Source: Xanthobacteraceae bacterium (GTDB lineage Bacteria > Pseudomonadota > Alphaproteobacteria > Rhizobiales > Xanthobacteraceae). Taken from it: a DNA stretch of 64,000 bases. Positions within the stretch are counted from its first letter, which is position 1. Each line of letters begins with the position of its first letter. The position numbers and the translations under genes are program-made. Below, one piece after another: positions 41,884 through 58,397 of this stretch. Under the pieces are notes generated by a model that did no database searches, was not told the DNA's origin, and saw nothing but the letters and a program-made list of their open reading frames with translations. The stretch is from the NCBI GenBank assembly GCA_024508855.1, contig JANINJ010000107.1:310001-374000 (forward strand). The letters run 5' to 3'.

Positions 41884-41891
41884 GATTCGCC

Positions 41892-42513: not shown

Positions 42514-43317
42514 TCAACCCGGACATGCATACGCGGCAGCGCGCGCCTCCGCGTCCCAGCGCAGCATCAAATCGTAATCCGCGACCGCAACCGGCGCAAA
42601 GCCCTTCAAGCACAGCCGTTCCCTGAGATCGTCGCAGACCGCAACCTCACCGAATTTCAATAGCGTTGCCCGCAACGACAGCACCACATCATCCGGACAG
42701 TCCCTGCTCGCAATGAGGAACGGGATCGGTGCGGCATCCGTCCTCGCAACAATCCGGATATGCGATGCGAGAGCGGGATCGTGACGCCGCATTAAATCCA
42801 GCGCATAGCTGTCGAGCGGGCCGATATCGATATCGCCAGCGAGGAGTGCTTCGATCACGCGTCGCGGCGTGGTGAGCGGACCGACGCTTTCGCGGTAAAG
42901 ATTCTCGCCCTGTCGCTGCCAATACGGCAACAAATGGTGCCGCAACGCATTGTAGCCCGAATGCGAATCCTCGACGGTATAACCGAGTCGACCTCCGAAC
43001 GTATCTTCCAGCGACTGAAATCGAGAATCTGCCTTTACAACCAATCGCGTCGTATAGACCGCTTTTCCGGAGCTTAACGGTAGCGGCGCAGCCACAGGTT
43101 TCGGCGGGTGGCTGGACAGCTTGTAGGGAAAGCCGCACATGAAAGCGCAGCCAAGATGGGGGCGCGACCACAGGTCCGCCAGGGGCGCCGGAAAAGCATG
43201 GTCGGTCACCCGCAGATCGACACCACTCGCATCTGCGAGCCACGCAAACAATTCCTTCCAGGCCGCCGCCGCGCCGGGATTGACCGAATACATCCGCGCA
43301 TTTGCGAAGTAGGCCAT
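42514..43317 (-). CDS. PhnD/SsuA/transferrin-like binding-fold protein without signal peptide
   Basis: A 267-aa protein with the type-2 periplasmic-binding fold: SVNPGAAAAWKELFAWLADA at the start, CGFPYKLS near 61, GRLGYTVEDSHSGYNALRHHLL near 108, ALLAGDIDIGPLDSYALDLM near 153, all as in phosphonate-binding PhnD. Unlike the true binding proteins of the window it has no signal peptide; the first strand starts at residue 2. It should therefore be cytoplasmic and may be a sensor, carrier or enzyme. It lies nine bases after the ornithine-cyclodeaminase-like gene and shares its HutC-type operator. Confidence 0.85.
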   Translation of the reverse strand: MAYFANARMYSVNPGAAAAWKELFAWLADASGVDLRVTDHAFPAPLADLWSRPHLGCAFMCGFPYKLSSHPPKPVAAPLPLSSGKAVYTTRLVVKADSRFQSLEDTFGGRLGYTVEDSHSGYNALRHHLLPYWQRQGENLYRESVGPLTTPRRVIEALLAGDIDIGPLDSYALDLMRRHDPALASHIRIVARTDAAPIPFLIASRDCPDDVVLSLRATLLKFGEVAVCDDLRERLCLKGFAPVAVADYDLMLRWDAEARAAAYACPG

Positions 43318-43326
43318 GACTTCAAT

Positions 43327-44328
43327 TCACGCGAAGCGGAGTCGCTGCCCGATGTCGAGCCGCTTCGACTTTTCCAACATGGCATGACCGAGCGCGATAT
43401 CTGACAGAGATAGGCCGCGATGCCAGAACAGATTGGTCTCAGCATCGCTTTCTCTGCCCGGCTTCAGGCCTGCCACGATCTGCCCGAGTTCGGCGTGCAA
43501 GGTCTTCTCGGACAGTTTGCCCGTCTCGACATGCGCGCGCAGGCTTCCAAACTTCCCGCCCTTGCACTGACCCCAATCGTCGACGACCAGTTTCGTCATG
43601 ATGTCGGTGAGCGACAGTTCGATCGCGCTCATGGTGCCATAGGGAACAACAAAGGCCCCCTTCTTGATCCAGGAGGTCTTCAGCATCGGCGTCGGCTTGT
43701 CGAGCCGCGATGCCTCGACCACGATATCGGCGCCCTCGATGCAACTCTGCCAATCGCTCGTTGCTACGACTTTCTTGCCGAGATCGCGGCTGAGCCGTTC
43801 TGCAAAATTATTGCGGCTTTCTTCACGCCGGGAATGAACGCGGATTTCGTCGAAGTCGAACAGATGATTGAGTAGCCGCACGTTCCAGTAGGCGGTCCCT
43901 CGCGCCCCGATATGGCCGAGGATTTTGGAGTTCTTGCGGGCCAGATGCTTGGCGCCGATGGCGGTCACTGCACCGGTACGCATGTCGGTGATGCCGCTCG
44001 CATCGAGGATCGCCTTAGGCGCTCCGGTTCGCGGATCGAACAGGGCGAGGATTGCCAGTTCGGACGGAAAGCCGAGCTTGTAGTTATCGACGAAGTCACC
44101 GACGATCTTCACGCCCGCGCTGTCAATCGGCTCCTTGATGGCGCCGCGCAGCACGTTGAAATGACCGTTGGCGACGCCCGGTTCGAGATGCATGCGCGGT
44201 TCAATCACCGTCTCGCCCCGGCCCTGGCTGGCAAGGCTCGCCTCAATCGCCGACAGGATTTCATCGTCGGTGATCTTAAGTTCTTCGATATCGAGACGAT
44301 TCAGATAGGTGATGTAGATCGGCGGCAA
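43327..44328 (-). CDS. Ornithine cyclodeaminase/mu-crystallin family protein
   Basis: A 333-aa NAD(P)-dependent protein of the OCD/mu-crystallin family. Visible are the N-terminal dimer domain, KIVGDFVDNYKLGFPSELA near 75, ASGITDMRTGAVTAIGAKHLA near 110, the Rossmann loop GHIGARGTAYWN near 140 and DIVVEASRLDKPTPML near 195. I choose TTG 44328 because it follows a perfect AGGAGG; the longer GTG start at 44367 has no ribosome-binding site and an odd Arg/Gly-rich leader. Family members deaminate ornithine, reduce ketimines or oxidise amino acids. The operator at 44380 just upstream suggests HutC control, independent of the preceding hutU-like gene. Confidence 0.87.
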   Translation of the reverse strand: MPPIYITYLNRLDIEELKITDDEILSAIEASLASQGRGETVIEPRMHLEPGVANGHFNVLRGAIKEPIDSAGVKIVGDFVDNYKLGFPSELAILALFDPRTGAPKAILDASGITDMRTGAVTAIGAKHLARKNSKILGHIGARGTAYWNVRLLNHLFDFDEIRVHSRREESRNNFAERLSRDLGKKVVATSDWQSCIEGADIVVEASRLDKPTPMLKTSWIKKGAFVVPYGTMSAIELSLTDIMTKLVVDDWGQCKGGKFGSLRAHVETGKLSEKTLHAELGQIVAGLKPGRESDAETNLFWHRGLSLSDIALGHAMLEKSKRLDIGQRLRFA

Positions 44329-44379
44329 GGGACCTCCTCGCCGGCGGCCGCGCTCGGTCGTCGGCACTGCAATTTAATA

Positions 44380-44389
44380 TGTCTATACA
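44380..44389. promoter_or_regulatory. HutC-type operator upstream of the OCD-like gene
   Basis: TGTCTATACA is the exact reverse complement of the 38901 site. It lies in the 104-base gap between the hutU-like gene and the OCD-like gene, 52 bases upstream of TTG 44328, marking an internal promoter inside the minus-strand array. Confidence 0.6.
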
Positions 44390-44432
44390 TTATTGCAGGC
44401 CATGAGGAAGTCAACAAGGCGTCGATGCTGGC

Positions 44433-46091
44433 TCAGCCGGGCAATCCCAGCGGGAGCGTCGCGGACAAGCCGGTGCGTTTGGCCTGATCGATCGCGATAT
44501 CGTAACCGGCGTCTGCATGCCGCAACACGCCAATCCCCGGATCGCCATCCAGAACCCGCTTGAGCCGCTCGGCAGTCGCCGGATTGCCATCCGCGACGAT
44601 GGTGACACCTGCACTGACGCCACGCCCGCCGAGACCATGAACCGCGACGAGATCCGCTCCCGACGAACAGTTGAGCAGCGCATTAAGGATCGGCCAATCG
44701 GCAATGGCGTCCGAACCGTCCTTCATATTCTCCGTTTCCCGATGAGGAAGTGCCGCGGAGCCCGAATCCAGATGATCGCGGGTAAATGCGATGGGTGCGG
44801 AAATCCTGCCGCTCGCCACCGCGTCGTTGACCATCAGAGCCAGACGGCTGCGCTCGCCATAGCCGAGCCATCCGATCCGTGCCGGCAGGCCCGTGAACTT
44901 GACGTGCTCGCGGGCCTTTTCGATCCATGAGGCAATCGGATGGTTGGATGAAAAGGTTTCGAGGATCATGTCATCGATGGTGTAGATATCTTTCGGGTCG
45001 CCGGACACAGCGATCCAGCGGAACGGACCTATGCCCTCGCAGAACAGCGGACGGATATAGAGATCGACGAAGGAGCGCATACGGAAAGCATCTTCGACAC
45101 CAGCAGCCTTCGCTTCAGCACGCAGGCTGTTGCCGTATTCGAATACGATCGCGCCGCGATCCATGAAGCCGAGCATGGCGCGGACATGCGTCGCAACCGA
45201 TCGCCGCGCCAATTCCATCAACTTCTTGGGATCGCTCGACCGCATCGCACATGCTTGTTCCAGCGATAATTCGGCCGGCACATATCCTTTCAATGGATCG
45301 GGAAAGGTCTGATCTGTGACGATATCAGGCAGAATTCCCCGTCTCGCCAGTTCGGGCAGCACCACAGCGGCATTCGCGCACAACGCGAGCGCCAACGGGC
45401 GTCGCTCGTCGCGCGCGGCTGTCCACTGCGCAATGGCCTCGTCGAGGTTGTCGGTGACAGCATCGCAATAGCCGGACGCGATGCGCCGATCGATGCGAGC
45501 CCGATCGACTTCGATCACCAACGTCGATGCGCCCGCAAGCTTTCCAGCGAGCGGCTGCGCACCGCTCATGCCGCCACAGCCGGACGTCAGCAGCAACCGT
45601 CCTGCGAGCGTTCCGCCAAAATGCTGGCGCGCGATCGCCATGAAGGTTTCGAATGTACCTTGCAGAATTCCCTGGCTGCCGATGTATTGCCAGGCCGCCG
45701 CCGTCATGCCGGGATAGACCGTGAGCCCCATATCGTCGAGCTTCCGGCGGCTGTCCTCGCCGCTCCATTCGCCCACGAGATTGCCGTTGGCCATGATGAC
45801 AAGCGGCGTCGTGGACTGACCGGGAAAGACGCCGACCGGCTTGCCCGACTGCATGACGAAGGTCTGATCCTCGCGCATTGTCGCGAGCGTCGCGACGATA
45901 CGATCGAAGCTCTTCCAGTCGCGCGCCGCCCGCGCGATCGACATGTAAATGACGAGATTTTCGGGATCCTCGCCATTCTCGAGATTGTTCTCCAGCAAGC
46001 GCAGAATCGCCTCCTGCCGCCACCCCTTGCAGCGCAGAACGTTGCCGCGCTCAGCCTTCACCTCTTTGCCGCGACGTACGGGAATTATCAT
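44433..46091 (-). CDS. Urocanate hydratase paralogue, divergent (candidate thiourocanate-type hydratase)
   Basis: A 552-aa member of the urocanase family, full length and with the NAD-binding GCGGMSGAQPLAGKLAGAS near 170 and DHLDSGSAALPHRETENMKDG near 437. Several positions that are invariant in the canonical neighbour differ. Cys409 becomes Gly407 (LPARIGWLGYGERSRL), [11 protein letters not shown] becomes [23 protein letters not shown] becomes NLVGEWSGEDSR, and [15 protein letters not shown] becomes HGLGGRGVSAG. The fold and NAD are kept but the pocket has changed, so a modified urocanate is the likely substrate. ATG 46091 follows GAGGAGG, two bases after the GST stop. It is the last gene of the ubiD-liv-DUF917-GST operon. 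Thiourocanate or S-methyl-thiourocanate is my best guess; methylurocanates are alternatives. Confidence 0.88.
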   Translation of the reverse strand: MIIPVRRGKEVKAERGNVLRCKGWRQEAILRLLENNLENGEDPENLVIYMSIARAARDWKSFDRIVATLATMREDQTFVMQSGKPVGVFPGQSTTPLVIMANGNLVGEWSGEDSRRKLDDMGLTVYPGMTAAAWQYIGSQGILQGTFETFMAIARQHFGGTLAGRLLLTSGCGGMSGAQPLAGKLAGASTLVIEVDRARIDRRIASGYCDAVTDNLDEAIAQWTAARDERRPLALALCANAAVVLPELARRGILPDIVTDQTFPDPLKGYVPAELSLEQACAMRSSDPKKLMELARRSVATHVRAMLGFMDRGAIVFEYGNSLRAEAKAAGVEDAFRMRSFVDLYIRPLFCEGIGPFRWIAVSGDPKDIYTIDDMILETFSSNHPIASWIEKAREHVKFTGLPARIGWLGYGERSRLALMVNDAVASGRISAPIAFTRDHLDSGSAALPHRETENMKDGSDAIADWPILNALLNCSSGADLVAVHGLGGRGVSAGVTIVADGNPATAERLKRVLDGDPGIGVLRHADAGYDIAIDQAKRTGLSATLPLGLPG

Positions 46092-46093
46092 TG

Positions 46094-46699
46094 TCAGGCC
46101 TCCTCAACCAGGGGAACCCAGCCGGGCCGGGCCTTGACCCGCGCAAGCCAGGCGCGGATCGCCGGGAATTTGTCCATGTCGTAGCCACCTTCCGGCGCCA
46201 TCGCGACGTAGCCGAACACGCCGATGTCGGCGATCGTGTAACGATTGTCGACAAGCCAGTCGTGGGTAGCGAGCCATTGATCGAGCTTAGCAAGCGCCAC
46301 GTAAGCACCTTCCTGGAAATCGGCGATCCGGCTTTTCATCTGGTCGGCAATTCCGCGCATGGTGTAAAACCGCGGCAACGCCAGCGCGCGCAACAGATCG
46401 GCCTGTTCGAAGGTCAGCCAACTCGTAACCTCGGCGCGCAAGTAACGATCGTCAGGCAACAACGGCGAGCCTTCTGCGAGGTAAAGCATGATCGCCGCAG
46501 ACTCCACGATGGTTCGCCCATCCTCGAGTTCGAGCACCGGCACGCGCGCGAAACGGCTCTTGGCGCGGAACGCAGGATCATTCGTCGCGCCCTTTGCCAG
46601 ATCGAGGGTGACGCGTTCGAAGGGAATGCCGAGTTGCGTCAGCAGAATGCGTACTTTCCAGGCGTTGCCAGACAACCGGCTGTCATAGAGACGCAACAT
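46094..46699 (-). CDS. Glutathione S-transferase family protein
   Basis: A 201-aa GST: thioredoxin-like N-domain (MLRLYDSRLSGNAWKVRILL, residues 1-78) with Ser10 at the usual catalytic position and the glutathione-binding RVPVLELEDGRTIVESAAI near 52, then a helical C-domain ending near 201. It is tightly coupled with the DUF917 gene (14 bases) and the hutU-like gene (2 bases). A GST here could handle the sulfur or thioether of the substrate, which would fit a thio-imidazole pathway; this is inference. Confidence 0.92.
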   Translation of the reverse strand: MLRLYDSRLSGNAWKVRILLTQLGIPFERVTLDLAKGATNDPAFRAKSRFARVPVLELEDGRTIVESAAIMLYLAEGSPLLPDDRYLRAEVTSWLTFEQADLLRALALPRFYTMRGIADQMKSRIADFQEGAYVALAKLDQWLATHDWLVDNRYTIADIGVFGYVAMAPEGGYDMDKFPAIRAWLARVKARPGWVPLVEEA

Positions 46700-46713
46700 G
46701 GCGGTTTACTTCC

Positions 46714-47781
46714 TCAGAGATAGGATCGCATATCGACGCCCATGGCCTTTTCGACCTCCGGGAATACAGCCGGATCGAGCGCGCCCTTGCCCACCGGAAA
46801 TTTCGACCGATGCGCGATGATGACAGCCACACGGCTGCCTGGTTTCGATTCCGAAATCGACACGACTTCACCAGTCTGCGGATCGAGCGTTCCAATCATG
46901 TCGGGAAATGTCGCCACCCGCTTGCCCGCGAAGTCAGCGGTCATGAATTCGTTATAGACACCGAGAACTGCCTCACCGTCTTTGCCCCGCACGATCATCT
47001 GGCCGAGATCAAAGCCGCCGCCGTAGGTCACGTTGTTTGCCGTCACCTCGCCTTCGACCAGTAACTCGCCACCTAAAAACTCTACTGTCGCGCGGACGCG
47101 GTCCGGTCCGTTGGCGGTGAGCATCGCTCGCCCAAGATCGAGCTGAAAGGTGATGGCGCCCGCCGCGCCATTCTCCTTGATGAAGCCGGCGGTCAACGGA
47201 CCACGCGCGGCATAGATCAATCCGCCATTGACCACGGCAGCCTGACGCATCACGTTGGAGGTACGAACGATGTCACCTTCGACCATGACAGCGAATTCAT
47301 TCTGTTCGGCGCTGCTGCCGCTGCAACCGATCTGCGTGATGGAGATATCCAGCCGGGACGCCAGCCCCATGCCGCCCATTTTGACCGTCGGATGTCCGCG
47401 CCCATTGGACGCTGCGTCGATGTAGTCGAGTCCGAGCGCGGACGCGACCAGCCAGGCATTGAAACCTGGCACATGCCCGCAGATCACGCCGACCGGCGAC
47501 TTCGGTAGCTTTTCGATGAGGCGTCGCGCTGCGTTGATGGAATCGCGCGGGCGGATCGCCCAGTTAGCAAACCCGGGGGCGCCGACGGCCGTCGCAGTAA
47601 TAACCACGTCGTCGGAATTCAATTCATCGAGCGCAACCAGCCGCACACCACCGTATTCGAGCGCCATCTGACCGAGGCCGAGGTTCTTGGCGACCGCATT
47701 CCTGCCGCTGCCGCCAGCCGAGAGAAACAATCCTCCGACCAACCCTGCTTCCACATCGTCCGCCGTCAGCATTCGCGCCAT
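46714..47781 (-). CDS. DUF917 (S-methyl-thiohydantoin desulfurase-like) protein
   Basis: A 355-aa protein of the former DUF917 family. N-terminal domain features are TADDVEAGLVGGLFLSAGGS near 5 (family: G-x-x-x-LGxGGGG), VALDELNSDDVVITATAVG near 48, GHVPGFNAWLVASALGLDYI near 101 and DAASNGRGHPTVKMGGMGL near 121; the C-terminal beta-rich domain follows from about 240. As I recall, members of this family have been described as S-methyl-thiohydantoin desulfurases in ergothioneine-type catabolism; other members sit beside hydantoinases. The sequence is divergent from typical DUF917, so the assignment is by family and neighbours only. It lies between the Liv ATPase and GST genes of one operon. Confidence 0.8.
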   Translation of the reverse strand: MARMLTADDVEAGLVGGLFLSAGGSGRNAVAKNLGLGQMALEYGGVRLVALDELNSDDVVITATAVGAPGFANWAIRPRDSINAARRLIEKLPKSPVGVICGHVPGFNAWLVASALGLDYIDAASNGRGHPTVKMGGMGLASRLDISITQIGCSGSSAEQNEFAVMVEGDIVRTSNVMRQAAVVNGGLIYAARGPLTAGFIKENGAAGAITFQLDLGRAMLTANGPDRVRATVEFLGGELLVEGEVTANNVTYGGGFDLGQMIVRGKDGEAVLGVYNEFMTADFAGKRVATFPDMIGTLDPQTGEVVSISESKPGSRVAVIIAHRSKFPVGKGALDPAVFPEVEKAMGVDMRSYL

Positions 47782-47822
47782 CGCTCATCCCCTTCATCCG
47801 CAACACGGATTTTCGAATATGC

Positions 47823-48536
47823 CTAAACTGCTGCGTCGATGCCGAGGAATGTCGCGAACATCGAGCCGGCCGCTTTGGCCTCGGCGGCTGTCCCCCGATA
47901 AACCTGCACGCCCGACGACAACACACAGACCTGATCCGCCACATCGAGGGCGCGCGCGGTGTTTTGCTCGACCAGAACAATGGTCATGCCTTCGCGCTTC
48001 AGTTTCAGCAAAGCGTCAAGGCAGAGATCAACCATCTTGGGCATCAGCCCCAGTGACAGTTCATCAACCAGCAACAAGCGGGGTTCGGCCATCAGCGCGC
48101 GGCCGATCGCCAGCATCTGTTGTTCGCCGCCCGATAGCGACGCCGCCATCTGGCTTCGTCGTTCATACAGCCGCGGGAAAAGACCGAACACGCGGTCGCG
48201 CTTGGTGGCATCGCGACTGATCGGACGGGCGTAGCCGCCAGCCGTCAGATTCTCATCCACCGTTAGATCGGAAAATAGCTGCCGTCCCTCCGGAACCAGC
48301 GAAATCCCGAGGCCGACCCGATCAATAGCCCTGCGGCGCGTGATGTCCTCTCCCTCGATAACAATACGACCGCCATGGATATCGACATGCCCCATGATCG
48401 CCATAATGGTCGACGTCTTGCCCGCGCCATTCGGACCTAACAACGCGAAAACGGACGCGGCCGGAACCTCAAACGACACATCGTGCACCGCCTCGACCGA
48501 ACCGTAGCCGCAATTGAGATTCTCAAGCTTCAGCAT
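47823..48536 (-). CDS. Branched-chain-type ABC transporter ATP-binding protein (LivF family)
   Basis: A 237-aa ATPase with Walker A GPNGAGKTS near 35, signature SLSGGEQQMLAIGRALM near 133 and Walker B RLLLVDELSLGLMPKMV near 154; note Asp-Glu-Leu in place of the usual Asp-Glu-Pro. ATG 48536 overlaps livG by 14 bases, and homology starts there. It is the second ATPase of the importer in the catabolic operon. Confidence 0.93.
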   Translation of the reverse strand: MLKLENLNCGYGSVEAVHDVSFEVPAASVFALLGPNGAGKTSTIMAIMGHVDIHGGRIVIEGEDITRRRAIDRVGLGISLVPEGRQLFSDLTVDENLTAGGYARPISRDATKRDRVFGLFPRLYERRSQMAASLSGGEQQMLAIGRALMAEPRLLLVDELSLGLMPKMVDLCLDALLKLKREGMTIVLVEQNTARALDVADQVCVLSSGVQVYRGTAAEAKAAGSMFATFLGIDAAV

Positions 48537-49290
48537 GGCTCGCCATCCCTCCACCGACATAAGCCTCGTGCACATCGGGATCGGCCATCACCTCGCGGGG
48601 CTCGCCGTCTCCGATCACCAGTCCGTTGTTCAGCACGATCAAGCGCCGGCAAATTCGCATGACCTCTTCGAGATTATGCTCGACCAGAACCACGGTAATG
48701 CCTTTTGCGTGAACCGCAGCGATGGCCTCAACCTGTTTCGATGCCTCGGCATGGTTCAGTCCCGCCAGCGGTTCGTCCAACAGGATCACGCACGGCTCGA
48801 CCGCAAGTGCACGCGCCACTTCAAGGCGTTTCATCTGGCCAAGTGGCAGCGAACCAGCGAGCTTCTTTTCCGTTCCAGCCAGGCCGACCTGCGCAATGAT
48901 CTCGGCGGCGCGTTCGTACTCCAAGCGTCTATCGAGGTGCATCAGGGCTCGGAAGGGAGACGACGTGCGGCGATAACCCGCCCCGAGCGCTACGTTGTCG
49001 AGCACGGTCATCTCTCGGAACGGCCGGACGATCTGATGAGTGAGTGCGAGCCCCCGCCGCACGCGCGCAGCAGTTCCGTCCGCCGTTACATCGACGCCGG
49101 AGAGTTGCACACTACCTTTGTCGGGCCGTAACAACCCTGCAATGATCTTGATTAGCGTCGTTTTGCCCGCGCCATTCGGTCCGATCAGCCCGACGAAATC
49201 TCCTTCTTTGATGGAGAAAGAAACACCGCCGACCGCCTGAACGCCGCCGAACCGGATAGCTACGTCGTCGAGTTTAAGTGCTGCGCTCAT
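48523..49290 (-). CDS. Branched-chain-type ABC transporter ATP-binding protein (LivG family)
   Basis: A 255-aa ATPase with Walker A GPNGAGKTT near 40, ALTHQIVRPFREMTVLDNVA near 86 (LivG normally has ARTFQ, here LTHQ), signature LPLGQMKRLEVARAL near 147 and Walker B VILLDEPLAGLNHAE near 168. The start overlaps livM by ATGA. Confidence 0.93.
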   Translation of the reverse strand: MSAALKLDDVAIRFGGVQAVGGVSFSIKEGDFVGLIGPNGAGKTTLIKIIAGLLRPDKGSVQLSGVDVTADGTAARVRRGLALTHQIVRPFREMTVLDNVALGAGYRRTSSPFRALMHLDRRLEYERAAEIIAQVGLAGTEKKLAGSLPLGQMKRLEVARALAVEPCVILLDEPLAGLNHAEASKQVEAIAAVHAKGITVVLVEHNLEEVMRICRRLIVLNNGLVIGDGEPREVMADPDVHEAYVGGGMASHAEA

Positions 49291-50135
49291 GACCGCCTCA
49301 CCGCCAGGAAGGCTCTTTGAACCATGCCCGTCAGGCCGCCCGGAGCGAGGCGGATCACCAGTACCAGCAGCCCGCCAAACACCAGCAGGCGGTAATCGTT
49401 CACGAAGCGGATCGCCTCCGGCAACAGAGTCAGGCCGACTGCCGCCACGACAACGCCCCAGGTCGATCCGATGCCGCCGATCACGACCATCGCCATCAGC
49501 ATCACCGAGAAGATGAAGTCGAAGGCGTCGACGGTGATGAACTGCGTGAAAAACGTGTAGAGACATCCGGCCAGCCCGGCGAGCGCCGTACCGATACCGA
49601 AAGCGGCCAGCTTGTAAGCACCGGAGTTGATACCGAGCGTCGCAGCCGCCCCTTCGTCTTCACCGACGGCACGAAAGGCAAAGCCCATCCATGACCGGCT
49701 GATGTAAAGACTGAGAGCGATAGTCGCCGCCGCGAACAGTAGGATCATCGTCATATTGCCGACAGGACCGAAACCGGTTGCCGGAATGCCGCTGATTCCC
49801 ATCTCACCACCGAGCCACGCCTGCTTACGAACGAAGCCGACGAACAGGAAGTTTACACCGATCGTGGTGACCGCTAGAAAATCAGTGCGCACACGCAGCG
49901 AAGCAAACCCGACCGCAAGCCCGAGCAGGCTTCCAGTGAGAAGCGCCGCCATGATCGCCAACGGAACGCTTCCGCTTCCGACCATTGTCAGCGCCGCAGC
50001 GTAGGCGCCCGCGCCAAAGAAAGCGCCGTGACCGAGGCTTATCTGCCCGCAGAATCCACTAATCATATTGAGGCTCACCGCCAGGATGACGTTGATGCCA
50101 ATAATTGAAATGATGCTGATTTCGTAAGCGCTCAT
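49287..50135 (-). CDS. Branched-chain-type ABC transporter permease (LivM family)
   Basis: A 282-aa permease with LivM-type NMISGFCGQISLGHGAFFGAG near 22 and VGEDEGAAATLGINSGAYKL near 160, and about nine membrane segments. It overlaps the LivH and LivG genes by four bases each. Confidence 0.93.
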   Translation of the reverse strand: MSAYEISIISIIGINVILAVSLNMISGFCGQISLGHGAFFGAGAYAAALTMVGSGSVPLAIMAALLTGSLLGLAVGFASLRVRTDFLAVTTIGVNFLFVGFVRKQAWLGGEMGISGIPATGFGPVGNMTMILLFAAATIALSLYISRSWMGFAFRAVGEDEGAAATLGINSGAYKLAAFGIGTALAGLAGCLYTFFTQFITVDAFDFIFSVMLMAMVVIGGIGSTWGVVVAAVGLTLLPEAIRFVNDYRLLVFGGLLVLVIRLAPGGLTGMVQRAFLAVRRS

Positions 50136-51001
50136 GCCGCGCGGGCCCCGGTGAAGCCCTGCGGGCGAATCATAAGGAGGACGATAAGCGCGAGGAAAGC
50201 GATGGCGTCACGATCGAGCCAGGAACCGATAAAGATCGTGCCATAGGCCTCGACCAGACCCAGCACAAGGCTTGCGATCAGGGTGCCGCGCACGCTACCG
50301 AGACCGCCTAGAACGATGATGGCCAAAGCCTTGTAACTGACGACGAAGCCGATGCCGGGATCGACCAGATTGTTCATTTCTGCGACCAGGCCGCCCGCTA
50401 TGGCGGCAAGCACCGATCCGACAGCAAAATTCAGATAGCGAACCTTGATCGGATCGATGCCGAAGCTTGCAGCGATCTGCGGCTTGGAGACCGTCGCACG
50501 CCAGCCGATTCCAATCCTCGTCCGTGTCGTGAACAGATGAAGCCCGGTAAATACGACCAGCGCTGTGACCACCATCGCTATCTGCAATGCACTGACGGTG
50601 ACACCGGCAAAATTGAAAGTCTTAAACGCAAAGGCATTTCTCTGAAAAGTAATGCCCTGCTCGCCGAAAACGATCCGGAATGCATCCTGCATCAGGACCA
50701 GCAATCCGACAGAGGCGATCATTGGAACGTCCGGCCGATACTTCAGCAGTGGCTCGTAGAGCAACCGATAGATCGCCATCCCGAACAGTGGAGTGACGAT
50801 AACGGCTGCGAGAAAGCCGAGTGCAATGCTGCCTGTGGCATTCGCCACGAGAACCGTGACGTAGGCGCCGAGCGCGAACACAGCGGCGTGCGCTACATGC
50901 AAGATACGCAGCAGGCCATAGACAAGAGTCAGGCCGACCGACATCATCGCGTACATGCAGCCGAAGCTGATGCCGGTCACGGCCAGATCGAAGTAGTACA
51001 C
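50132..51001 (-). CDS. Branched-chain-type ABC transporter permease (LivH family)
   Basis: A 289-aa permease starting at GTG 51001 (YYFDLAVTGISFGCMYAMMS) with RILHVAHAAVFALGAYVTVL near 32 and VLGGLGSVRGTLIASLVLGL near 230. An A-rich GGA lies about ten bases upstream of the GTG. It is the channel partner of LivM. Confidence 0.92.
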   Translation of the reverse strand: MYYFDLAVTGISFGCMYAMMSVGLTLVYGLLRILHVAHAAVFALGAYVTVLVANATGSIALGFLAAVIVTPLFGMAIYRLLYEPLLKYRPDVPMIASVGLLVLMQDAFRIVFGEQGITFQRNAFAFKTFNFAGVTVSALQIAMVVTALVVFTGLHLFTTRTRIGIGWRATVSKPQIAASFGIDPIKVRYLNFAVGSVLAAIAGGLVAEMNNLVDPGIGFVVSYKALAIIVLGGLGSVRGTLIASLVLGLVEAYGTIFIGSWLDRDAIAFLALIVLLMIRPQGFTGARAA

Positions 51002-51064
51002 CGCATCATCCTTTGCCGTGGACGGCGTACACTATTGCCGCCGCCCATTCCGTCCCTCTCAGGC

Positions 51065-52249
51065 TTATTTCTCGGGTGGTGCGAACGCGGAGAGATCTGT
51101 GAGTACCCCGGCAGGCTTGAACTTGCCGTCCTTGATAACGTTGACGCTGATCGGCATGATCATCTCGTGCAGGCTGTTGAAGCCGTTGAGCGTCCCTTCG
51201 AGTATCGGGAAATCCTTGGTTGCCGCCAGCGCATCGCGCACCTTAGCCGGATCGGTACTGTTGGCACGTTTGATTCCGTCCGCCATCAGCCGGACCGCGG
51301 AATATGTGATCGCCGCGACGCCTTCCGGAGCATAGCCGGCGCGTTTCTTGAATTCCGTGAAGAAATGCTGAAGGGTTTCATCCTTCCGGTCGCGGTCAAA
51401 GCTGTCCATGATATAGGTGCCTTCGGCGGCGGGTCCGGCGATCTCTATGAACTTCTCGGAATCGAAAGCCTGCGAACCAATAATCGGCACCGTGATCCCA
51501 GCGGCGCGCAACTGCGAAACCAGGGGACCGCCGGTGAAGAAATAACCGGTCGCGTACACCGCGTCAGGATTATCGCGCTTCACGCTCGCGACGATCGAGC
51601 CGAACTGACGATCCTTGAGCGAATAGCTGTACTTGTTGACAACGGTGATGCCGTATTTTCCGGAAGCCTCGATGAAGCCGTTCATCGTCGCCTGGCCGTA
51701 GTCGTTATCCATCGTGATGGTGGATATCTTCTTCAATCCGAGATTCTTCCCGATGTAGAGCGCGGTCGCCGCACCTTGCTGCGGGCCGAGATGGACCAGG
51801 CGGAACATGTAATCGCCGGCGCGCGTGATGTCCGGATGCACGCCGTAGGCCGAAATCATGACGACACCAGCCTTCTGAAACACCGGCGCGGCTGCGCGGC
51901 CAGATGCCGAGTAGCTGCCGTTGACGACCAGTTTGACGCCGTCTTCGCCGATCAGCTTGTTCGCAGTAAAAATTGCCTGATCGGATTTGGCCTGGTCATC
52001 ATAAGTGACCAGCTCGATTTTCTGACCGAGCACACCACCCGCGGCGTTGACGTCTTCAGCTGCCATAATCCCGGCGATTTGAGCTGACTTGCCGTCGGTC
52101 GCTGCGGGGCCCGTCAGTGGCACCTGGAAGCCGATCTTAATGTCGGCCTGTGCCGGCATCAGCGTGGCTGCCCCGAGCATCAGAACGCTCGTCAGTCCAA
52201 GGGATAGTTTTCTACCGACCCTTGGCAGTTTGGCAATTTGTTTCAGCAT
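51065..52249 (-). CDS. Branched-chain-type ABC transporter substrate-binding protein (LivK family)
   Basis: A 394-aa periplasmic binding protein. The signal peptide covers about residues 1-35 (basic KLPRVGRK, hydrophobic LSLGLTSVLMLGAATLM, cleavage near AQAD). The mature chain begins IKIGFQVPLTGPAATDGK, the type-1 ligand fold. ATG 52249 is chosen over an in-frame ATG at 52261 because GGAGAG lies at the right distance. It follows the UbiD-like gene by 39 bases and probably gives the operon its import specificity, perhaps for a (thio)urocanate-like or betaine compound. Confidence 0.93.
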   Translation of the reverse strand: MLKQIAKLPRVGRKLSLGLTSVLMLGAATLMPAQADIKIGFQVPLTGPAATDGKSAQIAGIMAAEDVNAAGGVLGQKIELVTYDDQAKSDQAIFTANKLIGEDGVKLVVNGSYSASGRAAAPVFQKAGVVMISAYGVHPDITRAGDYMFRLVHLGPQQGAATALYIGKNLGLKKISTITMDNDYGQATMNGFIEASGKYGITVVNKYSYSLKDRQFGSIVASVKRDNPDAVYATGYFFTGGPLVSQLRAAGITVPIIGSQAFDSEKFIEIAGPAAEGTYIMDSFDRDRKDETLQHFFTEFKKRAGYAPEGVAAITYSAVRLMADGIKRANSTDPAKVRDALAATKDFPILEGTLNGFNSLHEMIMPISVNVIKDGKFKPAGVLTDLSAFAPPEK

Positions 52250-52288
52250 AGCGCTCTCCATTGAAAGATCGATTGTCTCGTCACGGAC

Positions 52289-53695
52289 CTATGCGAGTTG
52301 GTTCTCGCTTAATATTTCACGCGCACGCGCACGCGCTGCTTGTGGCGGTTGCGCCAATTCCCAATCCAAACGGTCTTCCGGCTTGCGCGTCGCATCGATA
52401 CCGAGTTTTCCGATGGTGCCATTCCGATCGAGCGGTTCGGAGCGGTCCGCCCGCACGCCGGGAATGATGATGAAATCGCGCTCCGGTTTACACCGCGTCG
52501 CTCTCGCCCACTCCACTTGAACCGGATCCCAAGGGTTGATGTCGTCTTCGACGACTATCACCTGCTTGATCAGATTCACGGCCGCCCAAACGGCGAACAT
52601 AGCCTTTTGCGCTTCTCCCGGGCGCAGGGCTCGCAATGCAATGACCGCATGAAGACGCCCGGCGCCCCCGACACCGACTGCCACGCTGGTAACCGATGGC
52701 ACTGCGCCGCGTATTACGCGCACAAGTCCGGCAGCAATCGCGACGCCGCCGAGCAGACAATGCTCGGGATGATATCCCGGCAGGATGACCTGGAAGAGCG
52801 CATCGCGGCGCCGGGTCAACCGGGAAAACGTCGCGACGATGCCCGCACCGTAGTTTTCATACATACCGTGAAACTCGCTGACAGGTCCTTCCATAAAGGG
52901 TTCGCCTGCATCCAGCGTGCCTTCCAAAACGCATTCGCAATGCGCCGGCACCAGCAAACCGGAGTCCGCACAGCGGACCACCTCCAGCGGCTCACCCATC
53001 AGCGCACCGGCTACCGGTAATTCGTCCTCGCCGAGCCCAAGATAAAGGCAGGCTGCCACCAGAACCGCCGGATGATTTCCAATGCAAACCGCTATATCCA
53101 GCTTTTCGCCACGTGCATGAGCCGCACGCGCTAGGATCGCGAGATGATGATTGGGTGCGATACCGACAAAGGCGCGGTTTCCGCCGAGTGGCATCAACCG
53201 CGCGATCGAAAGGTTGGTGTGGCCGCTGACTTTGTCTCTCGCGATAATGCAGCCGGCGGTAATGTAGGGGCCGCCTTCTTTTTCAAAGAAGCGCGGAATC
53301 GGAAGTTCATCCGTCAAAGACGGATCGCTGACGATCTCTTCCTGACATGGTCCGGACGGCAAGACGCGATGCGGCAAGGGCTTTTCAATTGCGGCCAGCA
53401 GCGAGCCTTGTATCTGTTCGACTGTCGTGCCCAAACCCGCGGCAAATCGTGACAACGAATTGAGCAGATTGCCTACGATCGGCATCGGCGGCGTTTTCGG
53501 CGATCCCTCGATATTAGTGAAATGCAGCGCAGGGCCGCTGTCGATCTCTGCGAGGCAACTGGCAACTTCATAGTCCAACCGGATCGGCTGTGCGATCGAT
53601 ACCAGTTCGCCGGCTTCCCGTAGCGCAGACAGGAACGCACGCATCGACTGCCGGGACTGCGTGGCTTTGCTGGTGATGACGTCTTTAATGTCCAC
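52289..53695 (-). CDS. UbiD-family prenylated-FMN-dependent (de)carboxylase
   Basis: A 468-aa UbiD-family enzyme. The catalytic R-E-E set appears complete: Arg in NLSIARLMPLGGNRAFVG near 160, and both Glu in FMEGPVSEFHGMYENY near 270 (E-x4-E as in ferulate decarboxylase). ARADRS-type C-terminal motif PGVRADRSEPLDRNG lies near 415. UbiD enzymes decarboxylate aromatic, heteroaromatic or acrylic acids using prenyl-FMN from UbiX; no intact ubiX is in the window. It is the first gene of the minus-strand operon and is divergent from the fused LysR gene. Urocanate-type acids are acrylic heteroaromatics, so they are conceivable substrates. Confidence 0.9.
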   Translation of the reverse strand: MDIKDVITSKATQSRQSMRAFLSALREAGELVSIAQPIRLDYEVASCLAEIDSGPALHFTNIEGSPKTPPMPIVGNLLNSLSRFAAGLGTTVEQIQGSLLAAIEKPLPHRVLPSGPCQEEIVSDPSLTDELPIPRFFEKEGGPYITAGCIIARDKVSGHTNLSIARLMPLGGNRAFVGIAPNHHLAILARAAHARGEKLDIAVCIGNHPAVLVAACLYLGLGEDELPVAGALMGEPLEVVRCADSGLLVPAHCECVLEGTLDAGEPFMEGPVSEFHGMYENYGAGIVATFSRLTRRRDALFQVILPGYHPEHCLLGGVAIAAGLVRVIRGAVPSVTSVAVGVGGAGRLHAVIALRALRPGEAQKAMFAVWAAVNLIKQVIVVEDDINPWDPVQVEWARATRCKPERDFIIIPGVRADRSEPLDRNGTIGKLGIDATRKPEDRLDWELAQPPQAARARAREILSENQLA

Positions 53696-53838: not shown

Positions 53839-53878
53839 GCGCAAGCATTATGGTCCACGCGTAAACCTTGCGAGATCC

Positions 53879-55729
53879 ATGATCGAGTTGCGCACCCTCG
53901 CTTACTTCGTGACCGCTTGCCGGTCCGGCAGCTTTGCGCAAGCTGCTGAGTATCTCGGCATTGCCGTCTCGACGCTCAGCACCACGATGAAGGCGCTAGA
54001 GCGCGACGTCGGTGTTTCCTTGTTTCGACGGATCAAGAACAACCTTTATCCGACTGAGGCCGCGCGCGCACTAATGCGCGGCGCGGATCCACTATTGATG
54101 GCTGAGCTATTCGCCCGACGGTGGGCCGTAGCGCCAGCGAGAGCTTCGCTGAAACTGCTAACCGTTGAGGTCGGCCTGAGTTTCACTATCGGCGGACTCA
54201 GCAAGGCGGTCAGGCAGGCCATCCACCAGATGGGCACCGAGCGCCCCGACGTTTTTGTCGACATAATATGGGCCGACGAAAAGGATGCTCCCCATGGCGG
54301 CAGCATTGTTGAAGACTGGCGCGATACCGAATCCAGCCGCGTGGAGATAACGCTCGACTATGGGAGTCGGCAGACATCGAAACGCGTCACAACGCTGTTG
54401 GCGGACCGATGGGTATTCGCGTGCCGTATGCCGTCCGGAACGCGCAGTTTTCCCAAGGCCGCCGATTTGGCGACGGGCCGCCTTGTCGTACCGCGGCTGT
54501 CGTCAACCCTGATCGAACAGGCGGAACGCTATTTCCGTCAGCATAAAATCAGCGGCGTGCGATTCCTCAATGATCATCCCGGTGACCTCCCGCGCATCAT
54601 GGATGACTATTCGGAAGCAGCGCTGTTTGTACCGGGAAGCCTGGTCTCTCCGCGCCTCGGGCTAACTAACATCGCGGCAATTTTGCCGGACGAGCCGCTG
54701 ACCACCCGGATCGTAGCCCGCACGACAAAGCCGGACACGCTGACATCCCTGTTCGTGCGAAAATTGCGGCATGCACTGGCCGACACGCAACCGGCTTTCG
54801 CGGACCGTCCGGTCATCAGCCTCCGGCAAATTCGCTATTTCAACCTGTTGCAACGACTTCGACGTGTCTCCGCTGCGGCCCGCGGAGCTAATATCAGCCA
54901 GCCAGCGTTAAGCGAACAGATCCACAAACTGGAAACCTCCCTCGGCGGCTCGCTGTTCGAACGGCGGGGCGACGGCATGATTCCGACGGTCAAAGGAGAG
55001 CGGTTCGACCGCATGTCCCGCCTGATCGAAACCAGTTTCCGACGGCTTTCCAGCGGCGACGATGGCGCAGTTCCGCCCCAGAGCCGGGGAATCGCTATCG
55101 GTATTTTACCCTCGGTCAACCAGCACGGTTTCCTCGTCAACCGGATCACCGAGGCAATACTGGACGTCCAAGAACGTCACCCGGCGCTCAAACTCTTGAT
55201 CCGGGAAGCGCCGAACGGAATGCTGCAGGATTGGGTGATCCGCGGACTGGTGGGCGTCGCGATCGTCGAAACCATTCTTCCGCAAATGCCGCGGCTGCCG
55301 CTCGGCTCATCCGAACGGCTGGCGGCCATCACCCATACGCGTCACAAAATGCTTCCACCGGGTCCGGTGACGCTTGCCGACCTCGCACGCCTGCCGCTCG
55401 CACTGCCGACAAACCGCTTCGGATTGCGTCAGTTGCTGGACGCGTCGGCCGAACAGCACGATATCGCGTTGCGGCCTTACATGGAGATCGACGCGCTGCC
55501 GATGGCGGTTGCCATACTCGGCCGGCTGCCAGTCTGCGCCGTGCTACCTCCGTCAGCCGTAGAACGAGAAATTGCCGCCGGCGACCTTGTCGTACACCCG
55601 ATCATCGAGCCGGCAATCTCGCGGCGATTGTTCGTGATTTATTCGGGCGAGCGCACGTTGAGCGAATCCGAGCGCGACCTCGTCAACTCGCTGCGCAGGA
55701 AGTTGTCCGAGCCGCGTCACGCGAACTAA
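53879..55729 (+). CDS. Tandem-fused LysR-type transcriptional regulator (two LTTR units in one chain)
   Basis: A 616-aa protein, twice the usual LTTR length. Unit 1 has a helix-turn-helix at residues 3-60 (LRTLAYFVTACRSGSFAQAA, later VSTLSTTMKALERDVGVSLF) and an effector-like domain to about 305. Unit 2 begins with a second helix-turn-helix at about 312-372 (LRQIRYFNLLQRLRRVSAAA, later SQPALSEQIHKLETSLGGSL) and a second effector domain to the end. There is no stop or frameshift at the joint (TQPAFADRPVIS). LTTRs act as dimers or tetramers, so this could be a covalent heterodimer with two effector pockets. It is divergent from the ubiD-liv operon and followed by the converging carbamoylase gene. 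Confidence 0.9.
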   Translation: MIELRTLAYFVTACRSGSFAQAAEYLGIAVSTLSTTMKALERDVGVSLFRRIKNNLYPTEAARALMRGADPLLMAELFARRWAVAPARASLKLLTVEVGLSFTIGGLSKAVRQAIHQMGTERPDVFVDIIWADEKDAPHGGSIVEDWRDTESSRVEITLDYGSRQTSKRVTTLLADRWVFACRMPSGTRSFPKAADLATGRLVVPRLSSTLIEQAERYFRQHKISGVRFLNDHPGDLPRIMDDYSEAALFVPGSLVSPRLGLTNIAAILPDEPLTTRIVARTTKPDTLTSLFVRKLRHALADTQPAFADRPVISLRQIRYFNLLQRLRRVSAAARGANISQPALSEQIHKLETSLGGSLFERRGDGMIPTVKGERFDRMSRLIETSFRRLSSGDDGAVPPQSRGIAIGILPSVNQHGFLVNRITEAILDVQERHPALKLLIREAPNGMLQDWVIRGLVGVAIVETILPQMPRLPLGSSERLAAITHTRHKMLPPGPVTLADLARLPLALPTNRFGLRQLLDASAEQHDIALRPYMEIDALPMAVAILGRLPVCAVLPPSAVEREIAAGDLVVHPIIEPAISRRLFVIYSGERTLSESERDLVNSLRRKLSEPRHAN

Positions 55730-55763
55730 CGCCCTGAAGACTGCTTCGACGTTAAAACGTCGT

Positions 55764-57032
55764 CTAGCTCGCGTCCTGCGACAGCGATTGATCGAGCGCT
55801 CTGACCGCTTGAAAAATGACTGCGGCACCGGCGGCAATCGCGTCCCGGTCCGCCCACTCCTCGGGCGCGTGACTCTTGCCTTTGCGGCACGGCACGAACA
55901 CCATCGCAGACCGGGAGATGCGGCTCATGAATGCTGCATCATGACCGGCACCACTGGGCAAATCTATCTCGCTCAGGCCGAGATCCTGTGCACCCTGACG
56001 CAAGGCCGCGCGCAAATCCGCATCGCAGGCGACGGGAGGACCATCCGACAGCGTTTCGAATGCGGTGCGGCTCACTTGCGCCGCGGCTGCAAATGCAGCG
56101 CTTTCTAGGTCCAAGGACTCTACAAAACGTTTCGTCAGTACCGGGTTCGTCGTCCGGGCGTCGACAAGCAGCCGACAACGGCCCGGCACAATGTTGGACG
56201 CCGAAGGTTCAACGGTCAGGATGCCGACGGTGGCGACGAAGTAATCCTCAGTCTCTCCAGCCAGTTGTTCGGCAAGCCGGCGGACGACGGCAACGGTGTT
56301 GGCCGCCGCCACAAGAGCGTCATGACGAAGATTGATCGGCGTCGTGCCGGCATGATCGGCCTCGCCCTGAAAGACGACTTCGATCCGGCGGATACCGACG
56401 ATAGACGTGACAATGCCGACATCGAGCGATCGCGATTCCAGCACAATGCCCTGTTCGATATGCAACTCCAGAAACGCACGGATATCCTCACGCTTCGCCT
56501 CAGCGAGCCGATCGGGATCGCCACCAACGCGCCGCAAACCTTCCCGTAGCGTTTCGCCCGATGGCTCCGTCAGATCGAGCATCTTGCTGTCGAGCGAACC
56601 GGTCATGCCCCGGCTCCCGACGCACGAGAGGCCATACTCGCTGGGTTCCTCCGCAAGGAAATCGATGATCTCGATGGTATGATTGAGGCGCGTTCCCGAC
56701 TGACGTAGCGCGCGAACGATCTCGAGCCCGGTCGCGACCCCCGCGATGCCGTCGAAGCGGCCTCCCGAGGGAACCGTATCGCTATGCGATCCCACTGCAA
56801 TAACGCCGAGTGCGGGATTTGTACCTTCAAGCCGGCCGATCAAATTCCCCGCCGTATCGATCCGGGTCGTCAGCCCAGCTTCGGCGAAACGGCGGGCGAG
56901 CCATGCACGTCCTTCGAGAAACAAAGGCGTGAACGAACGCCGGGTGTAGGGACGTGCCGGGTCCGTGATATCGGCCAGCGCCATCACATCCGCCCAGAGG
57001 CGATTCGCATCAAGCGGAAGGTTTGTTTTCAT
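55764..57032 (-). CDS. Zn-dependent N-carbamoyl-L-amino acid hydrolase/allantoate amidohydrolase family (M20)
   Basis: A 422-aa M20-type amidase. Metal ligands fit His83 in GSHSDTVPSGGRFDG, the Asp of FDGIAG, Glu in FLAEEPSEYGLSCVGSRGMTG near 130, His in ELHIEQG near 195, and the C-terminal His in SGAGHDAAFM near 383; a dimerisation domain contains DHAGTTPINLRHD near 225. The family cleaves N-carbamoyl groups (to ammonia and CO2) or allantoate. It starts 12 bases after the cyclic amidase, a pairing typical of hydantoin utilisation. Here N-carbamoyl-L-glutamate is the proposed substrate. Confidence 0.88.
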   Translation of the reverse strand: MKTNLPLDANRLWADVMALADITDPARPYTRRSFTPLFLEGRAWLARRFAEAGLTTRIDTAGNLIGRLEGTNPALGVIAVGSHSDTVPSGGRFDGIAGVATGLEIVRALRQSGTRLNHTIEIIDFLAEEPSEYGLSCVGSRGMTGSLDSKMLDLTEPSGETLREGLRRVGGDPDRLAEAKREDIRAFLELHIEQGIVLESRSLDVGIVTSIVGIRRIEVVFQGEADHAGTTPINLRHDALVAAANTVAVVRRLAEQLAGETEDYFVATVGILTVEPSASNIVPGRCRLLVDARTTNPVLTKRFVESLDLESAAFAAAAQVSRTAFETLSDGPPVACDADLRAALRQGAQDLGLSEIDLPSGAGHDAAFMSRISRSAMVFVPCRKGKSHAPEEWADRDAIAAGAAVIFQAVRALDQSLSQDAS

Positions 57033-57044
57033 CCGATCCCTGAC

Positions 57045-58397
57045 CTAGCGAGCGCGAAGAGGACTGACGAAACGACCTTGCCCGGGTTCGGCAAGCACAC
57101 GCCCGTCGGCGGCGACGCAATCGCCTCGAAGATAGGTCTCTACCACACGGAACGGCAGTTCGATTCCGTCATAGGGGCTCCAGGATACAAAATTATTTCC
57201 GCTGGTTGCCGCCTTGTAGCGATAGGGATCACGGCGAATCAGCGCGATATCCGCATCGCGGCCGACCTCCAGCGCACCCTTGGCATGTGTGATCCGAAAC
57301 AGTGCAGCCGGGTTATGCGCAAGCAGACGCGCGGCATGGCTGAGAGAAAGCCCACGCTGATCCAAGCCCTTCAGAAGCAGTACATACAAAGCTTCGAGGC
57401 CCGGAATTCCCGATGAATTTTTCAGCATATTTGGATCGGTCTTGCGATCTTCCGACCAGCTTACATGATCGGTCGAAACGATCGTGACATTGCCAGCCGC
57501 CAGATGATGCCAAAGGGCTTCAACCTCGCGGCGGGGCCGTAACGGCGGATTGATCTTGGCCTTCCCGCCAAGACGCCGGACATCGTTATCTTCGTCGAGC
57601 GTCAGATAATGAACGCAGGCCTCGATCGTCGCACCATGGCCCTGGGCGCGATAAGCGGCTGCCAGTTCATACCCGCGACCGATCGAACTGTGGACAATGT
57701 GCACAGGGCACCCGGCGCCTGCGCCTAGTTCGAACACTTCGGCTGTCGCCAGCGCCTCGGAAATCGGCGGGCGCGACAGACCATGCGCGGTGTAGTCCGT
57801 GATGCCCTTTGCTTCGACATCGGCCATGAAGGCACGGACCATCTCGTCATTCTCGTTGTGAATACCCGCGATCAGTCCCCTCTTCCCGACAGCGCAAAAG
57901 CTCGCATACAGCACATGCGGCGGAATCCTGGGGAAACGTTTGGGATGGGTTCCGAAGGTCGAGAACTTAAAGGCTGCGGCGCCGGCGTCGACCAGTTCAT
58001 CGATCCGCGCAGGACCTTCATCCGGATCGATAGTCGCATAAAGCGCAAAATCGACACGCGCCTGCGCTCCCGCTTCCCTCTCCTTTGTCCGGAATCGCTC
58101 CGCCGTGGCGATCAGACAATTGTCGTCATAGGGCATGTCGACGATCGTGGTGACACCGCCCGCCGCAGCGCTCCGTGTCGACCAGATGAAATCTTCCTGT
58201 CCAAGCTGGCTGCGGCTGTGAACCTGGGCATCGATCGCACCCGGAAACACAAGGAAACCGGGTCCACCGTGCTTTTCGCCCTCAGGCGCGCTGCCGGACC
58301 CGACCGACTGTATCAATCCGTTGCTTACCAGGACGTAGCCGTTCTCGATGATACGATCGGGCAGAATGACCGTGCCCTGGAAGACTTTGTCAGTCAT
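57045..58397 (-). CDS. Cyclic amidase of the dihydropyrimidinase/allantoinase/hydantoinase family
   Basis: A 450-aa amidohydrolase. The metal motif is FPGAIDAQVHSR, with Gln58 in place of the first His of the usual HxH (a variant also seen in some relatives) and His60 kept; the bridging carbamylated Lys fits AAFKFSTFGTHP near 140, then HNEN near 180, HIVHSS near 235 and STDHVSWSEDRK near 307. ATG 58397 is six bases after AAAGAG; an ATG at 58403 is possible. Enzymes of this family open five- or six-membered cyclic ureides. Paired with the carbamoylase, it should convert a hydantoin, such as hydantoin-5-propionate, to an N-carbamoyl amino acid. Confidence 0.87.
   Translation of the reverse strand: MTDKVFQGTVILPDRIIENGYVLVSNGLIQSVGSGSAPEGEKHGGPGFLVFPGAIDAQVHSRSQLGQEDFIWSTRSAAAGGVTTIVDMPYDDNCLIATAERFRTKEREAGAQARVDFALYATIDPDEGPARIDELVDAGAAAFKFSTFGTHPKRFPRIPPHVLYASFCAVGKRGLIAGIHNENDEMVRAFMADVEAKGITDYTAHGLSRPPISEALATAEVFELGAGAGCPVHIVHSSIGRGYELAAAYRAQGHGATIEACVHYLTLDEDNDVRRLGGKAKINPPLRPRREVEALWHHLAAGNVTIVSTDHVSWSEDRKTDPNMLKNSSGIPGLEALYVLLLKGLDQRGLSLSHAARLLAHNPAALFRITHAKGALEVGRDADIALIRRDPYRYKAATSGNNFVSWSPYDGIELPFRVVETYLRGDCVAADGRVLAEPGQGRFVSPLRAR

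Follow-up and report, generated by a model that had tools for sequence, protein, structure and literature searches.

A candidate island for the catabolism of urocanate-type acids, with the S-methyl branch of ergothioneine catabolism and no recognisable lyase of the HutH family, in a Xanthobacteraceae bacterium

Introduction

The thiol ergothioneine is abundant in fungi and actinobacteria, and its environmental fate is little known. Here we describe a gene island in a 64,000-nucleotide stretch of DNA, called the window below, on contig JANINJ010000107.1 (C107) of the 5.16-Mb assembly GCA_024508855.1 of a Xanthobacteraceae bacterium (completeness 99.89 %). Judged by their sequences, the island enzymes are those of an already described pathway, the S-methyl branch of ergothioneine catabolism, and we consider it reasonably probable that the island as a whole serves the catabolism of imported urocanate-type acids, which would enter below the ammonia- or trimethylamine-lyase step.

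The closest described system is the five-step catabolism of ergothioneine in bacteria, reportedly presented by Beliaeva et al. in 2021. The island shares with it the hydratase, the DUF917 desulfurase, ErtD and ErtE, with the chemistry in the same order, but its enzymes fit the S-methyl and not the thio models, ergothionase was not found, and a Liv importer, a glutathione S-transferase (GST), a UbiD-family decarboxylase and a LysR fusion are additional. The pathway enzymes are already known and are modelled in NCBIfam. Compared with the models NF058531 and NF058532 and the solved structures 8q9v and 8q9u, the window enzymes exceed both cut-offs; however, these models cover single enzymes, and the GST, UbiD and regulator of the island lie outside them. 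As in the hut pathway, the island has HutC, HutF, HutI and HutU over the NCBIfam cut-offs and HutD over the Pfam cut-off, but the assembly is without a match to PF00221 and the cluster begins at urocanate.

Thiourocanic acid from ergothioneine breakdown cross-feeds gut bacteria, as is stated with a citation in PMC13405746. There, too, one microbe uses a urocanate analogue that another has released; that system is one of gut anaerobes and anaerobic energy metabolism, whereas the route inferred here, from genomes only, runs through a hydratase to glutamate and belongs to an alphaproteobacterium. A literature search gave no paper treating UbiD, GST or the LysR fusion in ergothioneine catabolism and none on a lyase-less hydratase route, which is weak evidence of absence, as most subscription papers were beyond its coverage.

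Results

Four enzymes of the window, all encoded on the minus strand, score over curated NCBIfam cut-offs (in bits): an S-methyl-thiourocanate hydratase, which is a urocanase paralogue (positions 44433-46091; NF058531, 961 against 880), an S-methyl-thiohydantoin desulfurase of the DUF917/S-Me-THD family (46714-47781; NF058532, 545.7 against 450), the N-carbamoyl-L-glutamate amidohydrolase ErtE (55764-57032; NF058540, 594 against 520) and the hydantoin-5-propionate amidohydrolase ErtD (57045-58481 as open reading frame, ORF; NF058538, 730 against 600). The hydratase is below the thiourocanate hydratase model (NF058530, 734 against 930) and the desulfurase below the thiohydantoin desulfurase model (NF058529, 278.5 against 440), and thus the thiourocanate branch is ruled out for the window's own enzymes by the curated cut-offs. 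An earlier note on this DNA had proposed catabolism of the thiourocanate/ergothioneine type with four of the five steps present. Each of the four is now backed by a curated model, and the same scores keep the proposal for the S-methyl branch and remove it for the thio branch. The note's assignment of the DUF917 protein as an S-methyl-thiohydantoin desulfurase is now also the naming used by Pfam and NCBIfam. Because the model match of ErtD begins at residue 31, its true start is probably near 58397, where the note had it.

The closest solved structures to the window hydratase are 8q9v and 8q9u, which we take to be the S-methyl-thiourocanate hydratase of Variovorax; the structure list names them urocanate hydratase only. 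A tree of 70 urocanase-family proteins contained HutU (12 proteins), S-methyl-thiourocanate hydratases (16, support 1.0) and thiourocanate hydratases (42, support 0.986). The window hydratase was placed in the S-methyl clade, and all three scored proteins of the thio clade were over the thiourocanate hydratase cut-off (1017-1036 against 930).

The enzymes belong to a single island at 34.0-58.5 kb, made up of an SsuABC-type importer, hut genes, the S-methyl block, the LysR fusion and ErtE-ErtD; the hutC-F / hutI-U-D cluster (36758-42476) is counted here to the same island. The reported ORFs and domains are present at their positions in the ORF list and domain scans, and the earlier note had correctly located both the operon of the urocanase paralogue, DUF917, GST, Liv and UbiD genes and the amidase/carbamoylase pair. 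The minus-strand block from the PhnD-like gene to UbiD (42514-53695) is close-packed, as seen from the spacing of the ORF coordinates. The gene order from HutF to ErtD is kept in G549 (L159; G numbers denote genomes, G000 being the window's own assembly, and L numbers fetched locus stretches) with 75-98 % amino acid identity over 18 genes, ErtD being cut by the end of the stretch, and most of it is found in G608 on two contigs (L162 and L199). Bradyrhizobium jicamae (G743; L003, L158 and L167), which also belongs to the family of the window, and G689 (L156) have the same order, but the OCD and PhnD-like genes are not beside the hydratase. As the gene order recurs in relatives, the block is no chance assembly.

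The lyases that would precede the hydratases were searched for with PF00221, the family which covers HutH and which also detects, with 281 bits, a divergent lyase of the ergothionase type encoded in the L076 genome. The ergothionase type is a putative assignment, from the position in thio operons and the 56 % identity of the lyase of the L076 genome to that of L085. No PF00221 match was found in the window's assembly, thus neither a recognisable HutH nor an ergothionase, and the genome search for an ergothionase-like lyase under the same regulators, which the earlier note had suggested, came back empty. HutI and HutU are 3 bp apart, leaving no HutH or HutH remnant between them. PF00221 was unmatched in all eight genomes of the genus, G000 included; only G000 and G001 among them have a match to the hutU model, and G001 (100 % complete) likewise has a HutH-less hut cluster and no PF00221 match. 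The search was positive in 5 of 14 control genomes and in the genomes of L003, L004, L005 and L076. An assembly gap is an unlikely cause of the absence, given the completeness of G000 and the listed 100 % of G001, G425 and G460.

The hutU model, which also picks up thio and S-methyl hydratases, matched in 164 of 391 sampled genomes of the family. PF00221 was searched in 80 of these (70 outside genus g2 and 10 of the 94 in g2) and was unmatched in 15, counting G508 as positive for its fragment of 31 bits. Of the 391 genomes, 23 had a desulfurase match at 1e-70, ten of them over the S-methyl cut-off. Half of these ten had no PF00221 match (G000, G425, G460, G549 and G608; G425 and G460 are assemblies of two and four contigs), and the other half had one or two (G407, G488, G689, G743 and G751). 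Of the 13 remaining desulfurase-positive genomes, two were likewise without (G420 and G568). No PF00221 match near 281 bits was present in the 23 genomes, where the matches were of 525-628 bits, together with a 92-bit fragment in G621. Neither was PF00221 found in the metagenome-assembled genome of a betaproteobacterium (L006) which has an S-methyl-type hydratase and a Liv importer. The HutU proteins of clusters without HutH between HutI and HutU form a single clade (n = 7, support 0.907); PF00221 is unmatched in four of their genomes (G000, G001, G549 and G608), and a HutH-like lyase is found elsewhere in the other three (G488, G689 and G743). The lack of a PF00221 match makes ergothioneine and S-methylergothioneine unlikely entry substrates, barring an unrelated lyase.

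A decaying remnant, in which the lyase has been lost and the rest of the island persists unused, is a very improbable explanation. The assembly without a PF00221 match and the HutH-like lyase next to the island in two relatives would agree with such a loss, but every gene is open, and pN/pS was 0.03-0.36 for nine genes compared with G549 and six of those nine compared with G689. Furthermore, the complete, lyase-less G425 and G460 retain hydratase, desulfurase, GST, ErtD and ErtE at 48-67 % identity, and the seven-member clade of HutU from HutH-less clusters also argues against decay.

We consider it quite unlikely that the island represents ordinary S-methylergothioneine catabolism in which the lyase is replaced by an unrelated enzyme, for example the OCD/mu-crystallin-family protein of the island (43327-44367, minus strand, from the domain scan) or the product of an unlinked gene. 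The downstream enzymes are complete, members of the OCD family deaminate amino acids, and OCD is in the island of G000, G549 and G608, all without a PF00221 match. However, in G689 and G743 (L222 and L223), which do have PF00221 lyases, the OCD and PhnD-like pair adjoins the HutH-less hut cluster and is separate from the hydratase, and OCD as the replacement is weakened by its company with such clusters even where lyases exist. Neither member of the pair was found in the G425 and G460 stretches of 20 kb, and elimination of trimethylamine from a betaine would not be OCD chemistry. UbiD was also considered as a general lyase replacement and was rejected, since UbiD coexists with a HutH-like lyase in G689 and G743; Rhizobium jaguaris and Rhizobium tropici, with UbiD plus a divergent PF00221 lyase, also counter it. 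By eye, the PhnD-like binding protein paired with OCD (42514-43317, minus strand, from the domain scan) shows no signal peptide, and it may bind its ligand in the cytoplasm.

Within the thiourocanate hydratase clade, the fetched stretches contained an ergothionase-type lyase at 24 of 31 type A loci and at none of the 11 type B loci. The seven type A exceptions were five loci of the window's family, Thalassospira marina and L176, which is near a contig end; the PF00221 lyase at L205, a type B locus, is of another type, and the locus was counted as being without ergothionase. A full-length LysR fusion was found at 6 of 11 type B against 0 of 31 type A loci, and UbiD at 5 of 11 against 1 of 31 (T. 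marina). The contrasts are in part phylogenetic, as the type B loci represent only two families, the window's own being one of them. L188, in which the hydratase is split over two matches, is outside the tree and the type A/B counts, and some stretches stop at contig ends (e.g. L157, L176, L189, L199 and L211). In G608 one contig carries a hut cluster together with an S-methyl operon; the LysR fusion, ErtE/ErtD and a type B pair of thiourocanate hydratase and desulfurase are on a second. Both contigs break inside UbiD, with pieces corresponding to residues 292-466 and 15-227 of the window UbiD, from which we infer that they adjoin. G608 thus has three hydratases (HutU, S-methyl and thio, the last with 1017 bits against 930) with one ErtE/ErtD set and no PF00221 match.

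The UbiD-family decarboxylase is the first gene of the window operon (52289-53695, minus strand) and exceeds the UbiD family cut-off (TIGR00148, 308.6 against 244.85). Its nearest solved chain is 6h6v, presumably the furan dicarboxylate decarboxylase HmfF, and the assembly has two UbiX genes over the TIGR00421 cut-off, which could supply prenylated flavin mononucleotide (prFMN). Divergent from UbiD is the LysR fusion (53879-55729, plus strand), with two HTH_1 domains; all ten LysR fusions scanned had two such domains and one recognisable substrate domain. UbiD precedes the Liv genes also in G549, G689, G743 and G608 (cut), is found inside the thio loci L205, L206, L210 and L211, and follows the hydratase in T. 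marina; L207, the UbiD of which is only 31 % identical, was omitted from the UbiD counts. Ensifer canadensis has ErtD-ErtE-UbiD-UbiX and a divergent LysR fusion (ErtD 772 against 600, ErtE 571 against 520), with hydratase and desulfurase unmatched within the 19-kb stretch. R. jaguaris has, by similarity, ErtD, ErtE, UbiD, UbiX and the LysR fusion without a hydratase or desulfurase match in its 19-kb stretch, whereas in R. tropici, which has UbiD and the LysR fusion, the ErtE match covers only 67 residues and ErtD is unmatched; UbiX in these two Rhizobium stretches is an ORF read by eye. This UbiD is thus usually accompanied by ErtD/ErtE and the LysR fusion, more so than by the S-methyl genes, with the exceptions that no LysR fusion match was found near UbiD in L205 and T. 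marina, and that ErtD and ErtE were unmatched in the 17-kb stretch of Allorhizobium ampelinum S4, where UbiD-UbiX and the LysR fusion are present. The probable role of the UbiD is to decarboxylate, or to defunctionalise in another way, an imidazole or hydantoin acid, unsaturated or heteroaromatic, which feeds ErtD.

UbiD, the LysR fusion and ErtD/ErtE could alternatively be the core of a separate route, e.g. for an oxidised (sulfonated) ergothioneine derivative, to which the S-methyl genes were added. The set without hydratase or desulfurase in E. canadensis and R. jaguaris is in accordance with this, as is R. tropici with its PF00221 lyase, UbiD and LysR fusion, and an ergothioneine sulfonate pathway of Agrobacterium radiobacter has been published, going by a title cited in PMC13405746. 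We nevertheless find a separate route unlikely, as no sulfonate-specific gene was identified here and UbiD-UbiX with the LysR fusion occurs without an ErtD/ErtE match in A. ampelinum S4. In R. jaguaris and R. tropici, UbiD and the LysR fusion have a divergent PF00221 lyase of about 200 bits nearby (L213, 4659-6107; L214, 7046-8494), which possibly belongs to a separate route for an ergothioneine derivative.

The GST gene (46094-46699, minus strand, from the domain scan) lies between those of the hydratase and the desulfurase. A GST, with 46-96 % identity to that of the window at the other loci, was next to the desulfurase at 13 of the 14 S-methyl loci having a desulfurase, G407 (L157) being the sole exception, and was found in none of the 43 thio stretches, although L199 among these is the other contig of the G608 island, the GST of which is on the L162 part. 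The count leaves out L006, which has a hydratase but no desulfurase match, and L008, a short contig which is also outside the tree (hydratase 56 %, desulfurase 40 %, GST unmatched); L003, L167 and L168 come from the L158 genome, which contributed a single count. Of the two S-methyl desulfurases of G488 (L160), only one has an adjacent GST, and the genome was scored as one locus with GST. An SGNxxK stretch was invariant in 11 aligned GST homologues. The distribution indicates a role special to the S-methyl branch, and the GST probably catalyses a glutathione-dependent step that is peculiar to either the S-methyl group or the unsaturated S-methyl acid. The earlier note had called the combination of UbiD, GST and fused LysR new, yet each of them recurs in related loci.

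Two kinds of molybdenum enzyme were observed near S-methyl genes of other genomes. A BisC/TorA-like molybdenum S/N-oxide reductase-like protein is encoded next to ErtD in four S-methyl loci (L083, 19665-21995; L160, 5561-7912; L163, 3848-6196; L004, 11632-13941) and was not seen in the window island. The Agrobacterium protein so annotated scores just below the TIGR00509 cut-off (968 against 1017.55), and the others are 58-71 % identical to each other or to it, which hints that S-oxides are handled at these four loci; the protein may reduce S-oxides of the substrate. A xanthine-dehydrogenase-type molybdenum hydroxylase, with flavin adenine dinucleotide, 2Fe-2S and molybdenum cofactor subunits (scanned in L164 only), adjoins the S-methyl operon at L164 2328-6123 and in the same region of L165; both genomes are complete and without PF00221.

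The Liv genes of the island, all on the minus strand, are LivF (47823-48575), LivG (start taken at 49281), LivM (49287-50135), LivH (50132-51001) and LivK (51065-52261). Based on the gene context we propose the import of S-methyl-thiourocanate as the function of this LivFGMHK set (47823-52261). The HutH-less hut cluster of G001 (L166) adjoins a related Liv importer (47-57 % identity), and a related Liv set is beside hydratases in L006, L040 and L046. At the other end of the island a sulfonate/NMT1-type ABC importer, comprising ATPase, permease and binding protein (34021-36741, plus strand), has SaoA, SaoP and SsuA-family models as its best matches, all below cut-off; it lies beside hut, and urocanate is a possible substrate.

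The hut genes are the HutC repressor and the formimidoylglutamate deiminase HutF (36758-38847, minus strand; TIGR02018, 308 against 220 bits; TIGR02022, 653 against 413) and HutI, HutU and HutD (38959-42476, plus strand; TIGR01224, 467 against 298; TIGR01228, 960 against 375). Directly after ErtD, PhnF and PhnG (58761-60154) are the beginning of a carbon-phosphorus lyase (phosphonate) cluster. Elsewhere in the window (26995-29104), Calvin-cycle genes encode a class 1 fructose-bisphosphatase and, divergently, a LysR regulator resembling CbbR, which at 350.6 bits falls short of the CbbR cut-off of 450.

Discussion

The reactions of the hydratase, desulfurase, ErtD and ErtE are known from their families, and the following route can be proposed for the island. 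S-Methyl-thiourocanate would be produced elsewhere from S-methylated ergothioneine and be imported by LivKHMGF. The urocanase paralogue would hydrate it to the S-methyl-thiohydantoin acid, from which the DUF917 enzyme would release methanethiol by desulfurisation to give hydantoin-5-propionate. ErtD would open this to N-carbamoyl-L-glutamate, and ErtE would hydrolyse the latter to L-glutamate, CO2 and ammonia. In parallel, urocanate, which arises from histidine, would be taken up by an importer of the island and pass through HutU, HutI and HutF. The LysR fusion, divergent from UbiD, would control both operons. The missing lyase family suggests that the strain takes up products whose breakdown other microbes began.

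Several observations weigh against entry below the lyase step. The completeness of G549 and G608 is just 89 % and 92 %. The S-methyl loci of Agrobacterium and Lichenihabitans contain a gene annotated as hutH (HAL family), so that for close homologues there is a route which begins with a lyase. At L156 and L158 (B. jicamae), where the UbiD-Liv operon is the same, a HutH-like lyase is encoded about 2.4 kb past the hydratase, and the state of the window could be one of recent loss or of a non-homologous lyase, and the HutH-like lyases elsewhere in G488, G689 and G743 mean that a gene missing from the cluster does not equal a missing enzyme. Liv importers carry many substrates. Among the 14 S-methyl loci, UbiD was found in five, with one of the remaining nine cut by a contig end, and it is therefore not required for the S-methyl route.

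On a wider scale, the lineage within the Alphaproteobacteria could be one of part-time urocanate scavengers, with parallel hydratase routes for urocanate and S-methyl-thiourocanate, and for thiourocanate in G608, which would convert imported acids to glutamate without an ammonia- or trimethylamine-lyase, and with the LysR fusion and the prFMN-type UbiD next to ErtD adding a further, undescribed acid derived from ergothioneine. We put this forward tentatively, as a possibility we hold to be less probable than its converse. The locus offers testable candidates in the GST accompanying S-methyl chemistry, the UbiD at the hydantoin stage and the LysR fusion with two HTH domains. If strains begin at the level of (S-methyl-)thiourocanate, the breakdown would be shared across species and (S-methyl-)thiourocanate would be expected as a measurable extracellular metabolite. 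If the scavenger reading is true, ergothioneine breakdown would be split between organisms outside the gut as well.

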